From the NCBI GenBank assembly GCA_903921785.1, contig CAIXRH010000053.1, positions 50,092-114,091 of the forward strand: 64,000 nt of DNA, given 5' to 3'. Below, piece after piece: positions 39,955-42,695 of the stretch (the first letter of the stretch is position 1; each line of letters opens with the position of its first letter). This DNA comes from an uncultured Pseudomonadota bacterium. Lineage in GTDB: Bacteria > Myxococcota_A > UBA796 > SXON01. The notes beneath the pieces were generated by a model. It was not told where the DNA came from. It saw nothing but the letters and a program-made list of their open reading frames with translations, and did no database searches. The position numbers were made by a program, and so were the translations under genes.

Positions 39955-40587
39955 ATGCTCAACGTCCTGCAACTCAACGCCGATTACACGCCGCTCCGAG
40001 TCATCCGCTGGGAGCGGGCGGTGGAGCTCGTCCTCGACGGCAAGGTCGTGCAGGTGGCGCAGTATCCGGGGCGGTTTGTGCGCTCGGCGACGTTGGTGTT
40101 GCCGTGGCCGTCTGTCGTCGCGCTGCGGAGATACTCCGTGGTGAGGGGGAAGGTGCGCTTTTCGTCACGCAGCGTGCAGGCGCGGGACAACTTCGCCTGC
40201 GGCTACTGTGGGGCCCGACCGGTCCTGCCGGACGGGCGGCCCGACCGCGTCCAGCTCACGATGGACCACGTCGTCCCCCGGGCGCAGGCGAAGGAGGGGA
40301 AGGTCTACCTGCCGTGGTCGCGCAAGTGGGTCAGCGTGACGTGCTGGGAGAATGCCGCCACGGCCTGCCGGGCGTGCAACTCGCGCAAGGCCGACCGCAC
40401 GCCCACCCAAGCGGGGATGCACCTGCGCATCTTTCCGCGCGTGCCGACGCAGTCGGATGCGCTCCGCATGACCCTGTCTCGGCTCCAGAGCCTCCCTGAG
40501 TCGTGGCTCGAGTGGCTGCCGACCTCCGCGGTGCGTGCCGACGAGGCGGGCGCGCTACCCGACGAGGCGACGTTCCAAAAGGCTTGA
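39955..40587 (+). CDS. HNH endonuclease
   Basis: MLNVLQLNADYTPLRVIRWERAVELVLDGK; CGYCGARPVLPDGRPDRVQLTMDHVVPRA...NAATACRACNSRKADRTP. Confidence 0.9.
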   Translation: MLNVLQLNADYTPLRVIRWERAVELVLDGKVVQVAQYPGRFVRSATLVLPWPSVVALRRYSVVRGKVRFSSRSVQARDNFACGYCGARPVLPDGRPDRVQLTMDHVVPRAQAKEGKVYLPWSRKWVSVTCWENAATACRACNSRKADRTPTQAGMHLRIFPRVPTQSDALRMTLSRLQSLPESWLEWLPTSAVRADEAGALPDEATFQKA

Positions 40588-40612
40588 CAGCTGGTCAGGC
40601 GCACAGTAGTAC
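40584..40612 (+). promoter_or_regulatory. lexA promoter candidate
   Basis: TTGACA (40584-40589)-N17-TAGTAC (40607-40612); -35 overlaps HNH stop codon. Confidence 0.5.
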
Positions 40613-40628
40613 AGGCGTACAGGAGTAC
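40609..40628. promoter_or_regulatory. Candidate non-canonical LexA operator (GTAC-N4 x3)
   Basis: GTACaggcGTACaggaGTAC, 8-bp periodic, overlapping -10 and SD of lexA. Confidence 0.5.
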
Positions 40629-40631
40629 ACC

Positions 40632-41267
40632 ATGGATCCGCTGCCGCCCCGCCAACGCGAGCTGCTCGACTTCGTCGCCGCCTACAGCGATCACAAGGGC
40701 ATTCCGCCCACCCTCCGGGAGATCGGTGAGGCGCTCGGCATCCGGTCCACCAACGGCGTCTCCGACCAGGTCAAGGCCCTCGTGAAGAAGGGCTTCCTCG
40801 AGCGGGTGGGAGACGCCCGCACGTCCCGCGGCATCCGCATCACCCACGAGGCCAAGGGTGGGTTCCGGGAGTCGGCCACCCTCGCGGTGCCGGTCATCGG
40901 TCGGGTGGCGGCGGGCTCGCCGATCCTCGCCGAGGAGAACTACGCTGGCACCATGCACATGGATGCGGCGATGATGCCGCATCAGGCACCGGTTTTTGCG
41001 CTTGTCGTGCACGGAAACTCGATGATCGAGGATGGCATCCTCGACGGGGACTACGTCTTCGTTCGCAAGCAGGGTGACTGCCGCAACGGCGACATCATCG
41101 TGGCGATGGTCGAAGGGGAGGCCACGTGCAAGCGCTTCTTCCGTGAGCGCAACCGGATCCGCCTGCAACCCGCGAATTCGGAGATGGAGCCGATCTATGT
41201 CGACTCTTCCCGGGATGTGGAGATTCTCGGGGTGGTGGTCGGGGTGTACCGGCGCATCCACGCCTAG
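40632..41267 (+). CDS. lexA: LexA repressor
   Basis: PPRQRELLDFVAAYSDHKGIPPTLREIGEALGIRSTNGVSDQVKAL; VPVIGRVAAGSPILAEEN cleavage site; GNSMIEDGILDGDYVFVRKQ; EATCKRF. Confidence 0.96.
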   Translation: MDPLPPRQRELLDFVAAYSDHKGIPPTLREIGEALGIRSTNGVSDQVKALVKKGFLERVGDARTSRGIRITHEAKGGFRESATLAVPVIGRVAAGSPILAEENYAGTMHMDAAMMPHQAPVFALVVHGNSMIEDGILDGDYVFVRKQGDCRNGDIIVAMVEGEATCKRFFRERNRIRLQPANSEMEPIYVDSSRDVEILGVVVGVYRRIHA

Positions 41268-41279
41268 TAGGCTGTGCGG

Positions 41280-42695
41280 GTGAGCCACCTCGCTACCCCC
41301 CGCCGCCGCGCCGCCCTTTGGGTGGAGATCGGCGTGAACCTCGCGCTGCTCACCCTCGCGGTCACCGTTCTGGATGTCGGGGTGTTCTCCCTGGCCACCC
41401 GCTATGTGCTTCGCGAAGCCAGCGTAGACCTCGCGGAGAGCGCGGCGGTAGTGGTCGCGGCCGAGGCCGCGGCGCAGGACCCCGCCGACTGGCCGCGCAT
41501 TGTCGAGGAGCACGCGCGTCACGGCCTGCACGGGGTCGCGATCTGGTCGGTGCGCGGGGACACCGTCGTGGGAGAGGCGGCCGAGGTGGACGCGCTGGTG
41601 AAGCGCACCGTGGCTTCGCGCGAGGTCTACAGCGAGATCGAGGGCGACGACGTGCGGGTGGTGGCGCCCGTGGGAAACGGTCGCCCGTCGGCGGTGGTGT
41701 CGCTGCGATACCCTCTCTCGCGCGTGGAGCGGCCGGCGTGGGGGGTGGTCGCGGCGCATGCCCTGTTCTCCGCCGGGGTGATCGGGCTCTTCGGATGGTT
41801 TCTCCTGCGTCGGAACGTGCTGGAGCCATTGCGGCGGATCTCCGCCGCGACCACCCGGATCGCCGGGGGCGACTTCGGGGCGCCCGTGCCGGCGGACGCG
41901 CCAGAGGAGCTCGCCCAGCTCGCCGGCGCCCTCGCGTCGATGGGGGCGGCCCTCCAGGGCTACCAGGAGCGCACGCGGGATCAGCTCGCCTCGTTGGAGT
42001 CCGCGAACCTGGAGCTTCGCCGTGCGCAGGACGCATTGGTTCGAACCGAGAAGCTCGCGAGCGTGGGGCGGTTGGCGGCGGGCCTGGCCCACGAGCTCGG
42101 GAACCCGCTCGCGGCGGTCAGGGGCTACCTGGAGCTCATCGTGGGCAACCCCAACGCCGCGGAGAACCAGGAGATCCTGGTGCGCGCGCAAGTGGATGTG
42201 GAGCGGATGCACCGCCTCCTCCGCAACCTCCTCGACTACGCCCGGGGGGATGAGTCCGAGCCGGGCGAGGTCGACGTGGAGGAGCTCATCCTCGAGGCCG
42301 CGCGTACGGTGCAGCACCAGCCGATCTTCCGGGGGGTCGAGGTGCGGGTGCGGGCCTCCACCGTCGGCGTCGTCCGCGGGGAACCGGCGAAGCTGCATCA
42401 GGTCCTGGTGAATCTGCTTCTCAACGCCGCGGAAGCGGGCGCGCGGAGCGTGGAGCTCGGGGCCGAACGGGACGGGAGCGAGGTGCGCCTCTCCGTAGCG
42501 GACGACGGCGAGGGCATCCCGCCGGAGAACCTCCACAGGTTGTTCGAGCCGTTCTTCACCACCAGGGCGCCTGGACAGGGTACGGGCCTGGGCCTCGCCA
42601 CGGCCCTCCGGGTCGTCGAGCAGCATGGCGGGCGCATCGAGGTCCAGAGCGAAGCGAGGCGGGGCACCCGTTTCGTCTGTTTCCTTCCCGGATGA
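41280..42695 (+). CDS. Sensor histidine kinase (HAMP-HisKA-HATPase)
   Basis: LASVGRLAAGLAHELGNPLAAVRGY; N-box NLLLNAAEAG; ADDGEGIPPE; GTGLGLATA; GTG at 41274 or 41280. Confidence 0.93.
   Translation: MSHLATPRRRAALWVEIGVNLALLTLAVTVLDVGVFSLATRYVLREASVDLAESAAVVVAAEAAAQDPADWPRIVEEHARHGLHGVAIWSVRGDTVVGEAAEVDALVKRTVASREVYSEIEGDDVRVVAPVGNGRPSAVVSLRYPLSRVERPAWGVVAAHALFSAGVIGLFGWFLLRRNVLEPLRRISAATTRIAGGDFGAPVPADAPEELAQLAGALASMGAALQGYQERTRDQLASLESANLELRRAQDALVRTEKLASVGRLAAGLAHELGNPLAAVRGYLELIVGNPNAAENQEILVRAQVDVERMHRLLRNLLDYARGDESEPGEVDVEELILEAARTVQHQPIFRGVEVRVRASTVGVVRGEPAKLHQVLVNLLLNAAEAGARSVELGAERDGSEVRLSVADDGEGIPPENLHRLFEPFFTTRAPGQGTGLGLATALRVVEQHGGRIEVQSEARRGTRFVCFLPG

Follow-up and report, generated by a model that had tools for sequence, protein, structure and literature searches.

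The lexA Gene and Its Promoter

The window (the whole 64-kb stretch of DNA that was analyzed) carries on its forward strand a lexA gene of 211 a.a. (nt 40632–41267, ATG at 40632), whose product matches the Pfam families LexA_DNA_bind (1.2e-18) and Peptidase_S24 (5.7e-37), contains the Ala-Gly cleavage site (VAAGSP), the Ser in HGNSM, and the Lys in ATCKRF, and is a genuine LexA. Its recognition helix (STNGVSDQVKAL) is almost the same as that of relatives. At one residue, LexA has Q in this genus and its closest sister genus (DQVKAL), versus mostly H in the other genomes of the order (DHIKAL/DHVKAL). The end of the preceding gene, an HNH endonuclease (nt 39955–40587), overlaps the −35 element of the lexA promoter. 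On the other side, a HAMP-HisKA-HATPase sensor kinase gene (nt 41274–42695) starts 6 nt past the lexA stop codon, a gap which suggests that lexA and the kinase may form an operon.

Read directly, nt 40584–40634 consist of TTGACA gctggtcaggcgcacag TAGTAC aggcGTACaggaGTACacc ATG, comprising a −35 element (TTGACA, nt 40584–40589), a spacer of 17 nt, a −10 element (TAGTAC, nt 40607–40612), and a Shine-Dalgarno sequence (AGGAG, nt 40621–40625), all on the forward strand. An earlier note on this DNA had described three GTAC palindromes overlapping this promoter and proposed that they form an unusual LexA box. The array itself is as described, with GTAC copies at nt 40609–40612 (GTAC 1, inside the TAGTAC element), 40617–40620 (GTAC 2), and 40625–40628 (GTAC 3), a period of exactly 8 bp, the AGGAG lying under the array, and 3 bases remaining between GTAC 3 and the ATG. 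The promoter was not called in a strict sigma-70 scan, as TAGTAC lacks the final T.

Conservation Among Relatives

The lexA gene was located in 54 of 58 relatives, and upstream DNA was compared for those lexA genes whose sequence was retrieved. Across 11 genomes, 10 from the genus itself and one from its nearest sister genus, the pattern TTGAC..CTG..C....G..CAGTAG......G...CAGG.G is practically invariant; the 43 nt from TTGAC onwards include 23 invariant positions, and the 45 nt 5′ of TTGAC include none. The −35 TTGAC is present in all 11 genomes, always 46–48 nt 5′ of the start codon, and TTGAC-N18-TAG is likewise invariant (11/11), with the −10 element conforming to TAGWAC in 10 of them. The AGG of the Shine-Dalgarno sequence is also invariant (AGGAG in 10/11).

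At the position of GTAC 1, four of these genomes have GTAC, six have GAAC, and one has GTGT; at that of GTAC 2, eight have GTAC, two have GTGC, and one has GCAC. GTAC 3 occurs only in the window genome. Given this drift and the restriction of GTAC 3 to a single genome, the conserved object is instead two 16-bp boxes lying end to end across the promoter, TTGACNNCTGNNC-N4-GNNCAG|TAGNNN-N4-GNNCAG, or, more closely, CTGNNCN4GNNCAG followed by TAGWACN4GNNCAG, with the left half of the second box being the −10 element. Most likely, only two of the three GTAC copies belong to the conserved operator that we propose below. In the window, predicted box 1 (CTGGTCaggcGCACAG, nt 40591–40606, forward strand) fills the spacer between the −35 and −10 elements, and its CTG..C....G..CAG is invariant (11/11). 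Predicted box 2 (TAGTACaggcGTACAG, nt 40607–40622, forward strand) abuts box 1, holds GTAC 1 and GTAC 2, and overlaps the Shine-Dalgarno sequence at its end (TAGWACN4GNNCAG in 10/11). The position of box 1 is also that of the single CGAACN4GTTCAG box which the sister genera of the family carry in the same promoter spacer. In a second family, abutting pairs such as CTGTACACTCGTTCAC directly followed by CCGAACGACCGTACAG are seen, and most genomes of the order carry a box signal in the lexA promoter. Most records of the lineage, which probably belongs to Myxococcota, are titled Deltaproteobacteria or Proteobacteria; two of its records (L108 and L110, with a lexA 77–89% identical to that of the window) bear the title of ‘Klebsiella pneumoniae’ metagenome assemblies, a title that looks mislabelled.

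The GTAC Repeat as a Motif

Within the window, GTACN4GTAC is found only at the lexA promoter, as two overlapping matches (0.19 expected), and the 7.48-Mb genome has the triple at a single place. Genome-wide, GTACN4GTAC is not enriched (16 matches versus 22 in the reversed control), its remaining places lie mostly within long open frames, and it was not seen before recA, imuA, or uvrB, so that it was rejected as a regulon motif. The exact triple stands upstream of lexA in one of the 10 readable genomes of the genus. The proposal that GTACN4GTACN4GTAC is a separate kind of LexA motif draws on the placement of the exact triple right over the lexA promoter, and on the LexA box of cyanobacteria, which has GTACN4GTWC at its core (PMC3091678). 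Against it stand the species-specific GTAC 3, the drift of the other copies to GAAC, GTGC, or GCAC in relatives, the genome scan, which marked no regulon, and the different strict palindrome (CTGWRCN4GYWCAG) found before uvrB, dinB, and imuA. We consider this proposal extremely improbable, and the comparison with relatives has largely refuted it already.

Boxes Before Other SOS Genes

When the 7.48-Mb genome was searched for the strict palindrome CTGWRCN4GYWCAG, a pattern drawn up from imuA boxes and those of sister genera, four sites came up (one in the reversed control). Three of them lie directly before uvrB, dinB, and imuA-imuB/dnaE2 (gene identities by Pfam), that of uvrB being 40 nt from the gene start. 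The fourth (CTGAACTTCGGTTCAG on C328) has no obvious SOS gene; it resembles a short hairpin whose loop is TTCG and was set aside. Relatives likewise carry boxes before uvrB, dinB, and imuA, and additionally before dprA. The uvrB box, CTGAACTTGCGTTCAG or a one-base variant, is kept by eight genomes of the genus out of the 10 that were readable at this site, and the imuA box is CTGAGCATATGCTCAG. The dinB box (CTATACATCTGTTCAG or variants in the genus) embeds TATAC and has the −10 element in its left half, as does lexA box 2. Before dprA, TTGACACCTGAACATSCGTGCAG or close variants occur in most of the genus; a LexA-type box lies between the −35 element and the start codon in seven of eight readable genus genomes (L224–L226 and L228–L231), the dprA of the window genome (L227) having only a degenerate CTGAACATCTGAACAT.

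The predicted boxes before lexA, uvrB, dinB, imuA, and dprA are the pattern of an SOS regulon, which for the window genome rests on pattern searches. A change in the LexA recognition helix was considered as a source of the motif drift at lexA and rejected; since the boxes of uvrB and the other genes remain canonical, we claim no change in LexA specificity.

A second candidate regulon motif, AGWACN4GTRCAGG, was essentially confined to lexA within the genus, plus one minC promoter in the window genome that no relative shares, and was also rejected. This minC site is a lexA-like promoter with a box (TTGACACCTGTACAGGCGTTCTG; L124 ~1500–1523, i.e., C5:2135–2157, minus strand), and a division inhibitor under SOS control is conceivable here. 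At the upstream regions of the two recA paralogues, a clear box was seen at neither. Upstream of recA1, an element is conserved (CGGACATTTTTTGG, or CCATTTTTTGG within the genus) that lies some 12 nt 5′ of CTTGCGNCCGTACAGG (L078 in the window genome; L071–L076, L079, and L082 in relatives); with the TTGC spacing, there is roughly one copy in each genome, the one at recA1. A similar element precedes imuA in sister genera (L166, L169, L170, L172, and L173). It is possibly a DNA-damage element independent of LexA.

Throughout the family, ImuB and DnaE2 are fused in a single open frame of about 1,600–1,690 a.a. (L160:1671–6551, on C336, in the window genome; L161, L163–L165, and L168–L173 in relatives), with Pfam domains in the order of an N-terminal IMS domain, then PHP, DNA_pol3_alpha, and finger domains. 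In most cases, the gene directly 5′ of the fusion encodes a short, RecA-like ImuA. No description of the fusion was found in a literature search.

Comparison with Known LexA Boxes

The lexA operator of E. coli consists of two CTGTN8ACAG boxes a few bases apart. The predicted operator in the window shares with it the presence of two boxes at lexA and the outer CTG/CAG; however, the boxes here abut exactly, with centers 16 bp apart, and box 1 (CTGGTCAGGCGCACAG) has CTGG/ACAG and thus departs from the strict E. coli consensus. The earlier note, which contrasted the motif with the E. coli and Gram-positive boxes, omitted the cyanobacterial box, RGTACNNNDGTWCB, which itself resembles the Gram-positive CGAACN4GTTCG (PMC3091678). 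The cyanobacterial box is the nearest match to the GTAC array first described, given its GTAC-N4-GTAC core with half-sites 8 bp apart. Its strict consensus is nonetheless violated by AGTACAGGCGTACA (at D and B) and CGTACAGGAGTACA (at R and B), and it lacks the outer CTG/CAG seen in the other boxes of this lineage. With the Gram-positive CGAACN4GTTCG (PMC3091678), the inner GAAC-N4-GTTC is shared exactly by the sister-genus and uvrB boxes, but here an outer CTG...CAG is conserved and the half-sites at lexA are relaxed to GNNC.

LexA motifs change strongly between groups, with 17 reported (PMC8565304). The lexA operator predicted here is most likely related, through drift, to the LexA box reported for Myxococcus xanthus, CTRHAMRYBYGTTCAGS (PMC9705874, from Campoy et al. 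2003). The latter is a 16–17 bp imperfect palindrome on the lexA promoter, with the right half GTTCAG and a CTGAAC-like left half, having its outer CTG/CAG in common with E. coli and its inner GAAC/GTTC in common with Gram-positives. The same architecture, 6-bp half-sites CTGNNC/GNNCAG around 4 bp, is present in box 1 of all 11 genomes (as CTG..C....G..CAG), and box 2 of the window keeps the right half only, its left half being the −10 element. Although the architecture is common to both, the window sequence departs from the strict M. xanthus consensus, as it does from the cyanobacterial and Gram-positive ones: box 2 with the next G (TAGTACAGGCGTACAGG) is off at four of 17 positions, and box 1 (CTGGTCAGGCGCACAGT) at several, while the uvrB box (CTGAACTTGCGTTCAGG) is off at one. 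Two further differences are the abutting pair at lexA and the range of targets. In M. xanthus, LexA was found to bind directly only at lexA, recA2, and, weakly, pafBC (pafBC-cyaA; PMC9705874), whereas here uvrB, dinB, imuA-imuB/dnaE2, and dprA also have predicted boxes.

Scoring and Alternative Readings of the lexA Promoter

The lexA promoter was scored with a symmetrized matrix built from 27 sites of uvrB, imuA, dinB, and dprA, chosen by eye from conserved upstream regions, with lexA sites excluded. Registers in the promoter rank 6, 7, 14 (box 2), and 34 among 63,985 window positions, and the promoter holds the three top places when abutting pairs are scored across the window. For tandem boxes, none of 2,199 control segments scored as well as the window promoter, and all 11 lexA promoters outscored each of these segments. 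The individual boxes are weak: the best in the window promoter scores 7.7 (13–27 for the training sites), a score matched by five of 1,418 random 60-bp segments, and box 1 scores 3.8, compared with 7–15 in nine of ten relatives. This weakness would fit a mild autoregulatory operator, yet is also the main weakness of reading the element as an operator. The choice of training sites by eye and the two recA genes, neither of them with a clear box, also count against that reading.

In our assessment, the element is very probably the autoregulatory LexA operator of lexA, formed by the two abutting boxes at nt 40591–40606 and 40607–40622. An inverted repeat lies over the lexA promoter and is conserved upstream of orthologous genes, and a like motif stands before uvrB, dinB, and imuA of the same genome and before dprA in relatives. 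The suggestion of autoregulation by LexA made in the earlier note is thus well supported, with a motif other than the one proposed. That the repeats are instead a by-product of the promoter, the Shine-Dalgarno sequence, and chance, or the site of another regulator, would account for the modest single-box scores and for the overlap of the −10 element and AGGAG with the repeats. It leaves unexplained the invariant CTG..C....G..CAG in a promoter spacer that has no other known constraint, the like signal before uvrB, dinB, imuA, and dprA, and the presence of the signal at the lexA promoter in most of the order's genomes; we regard this as very unlikely.

A refinement of the operator reading concerns the register in which the half-sites pair. 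The promoter has half-sites at an 8-bp period (GGTC at nt 40593, GCAC at 40601, and GTAC at 40609, 40617, and 40625), and GTAC is self-complementary, so that each copy would be usable as a left or right half. A shifted register would pair half-sites 2 and 3 (GCGCACagtaGTACAG, nt 40599–40614, forward strand; score 7.7, rank 6) and GTAC 2 with GTAC 3 (GCGTACaggaGTACAC, nt 40615–40630, forward strand; score 7.5, rank 7), for a combined 15.2 versus 10.1 in the family register. In one relative (L021), the shifted register also scores better (17.7 versus 10.5), while the family register is favored in the other nine of the 11 genomes. Over all lexA upstream regions, matrix hits 8 bp apart occurred 16 times and hits 16 bp apart 27 times (about 0 in shuffles for both), counts which include related sequences rather than independent events and are inflated also by the symmetry of abutting boxes. 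Five interchangeable half-sites offering LexA two registers, with the shifted one (including GTAC 3) stronger in this genome, would agree with these scores and with the 8-bp hits; however, the score difference is small for a matrix of 27 sites, most of the genomes favor the family register, and relatives do not keep GTAC at the fifth half-site, so we think this refinement unlikely. GTAC 3 could matter for such a shifted register. Quite unlikely, too, is the broader idea that, in this genus, five half-sites at an 8-bp period make up one uninterrupted lexA operator with alternative registers, sliding by one half-site in evolution, to which the window species and L021 would point, or in the cell. 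If true, register sliding would tune lexA repression without loss of function.

Proposed Mechanism and Implications

For the operator of two abutting boxes, LexA binding, repression, and the order of induction are inferred from the sequence as follows. Each of the two inverted-repeat boxes, of the form CTGNNC-N4-GNNCAG with centers 16 bp apart, would take one LexA dimer, the left half of box 2 being bent to TAGTAC by its double duty as the −10 element. Two dimers would then cover the −35/−10 spacer, the −10 element, and the transcript start, excluding RNA polymerase, until DNA damage leads to RecA-stimulated self-cleavage of LexA and frees the promoter. As the lexA boxes are weaker than the uvrB, dinB, and imuA boxes of the lineage, lexA would be derepressed early and easily, as expected of an autoregulated repressor.

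The comparison carries a caution, in that a repeat as striking as the GTAC triple, seen in one genome, can turn out to be the drifted appearance of another, conserved motif. It also illustrates the drift of a LexA operator, where target genes keep near-perfect palindromes and lexA has two weak, abutting boxes that double as the −10 element and reach into the ribosome site. For a lineage of uncultured ‘Deltaproteobacteria’ that is known through metagenome assemblies, the analysis provides a predicted LexA box and a first putative SOS regulon, comprising lexA, uvrB, dinB, imuA-imuB/dnaE2, and dprA.
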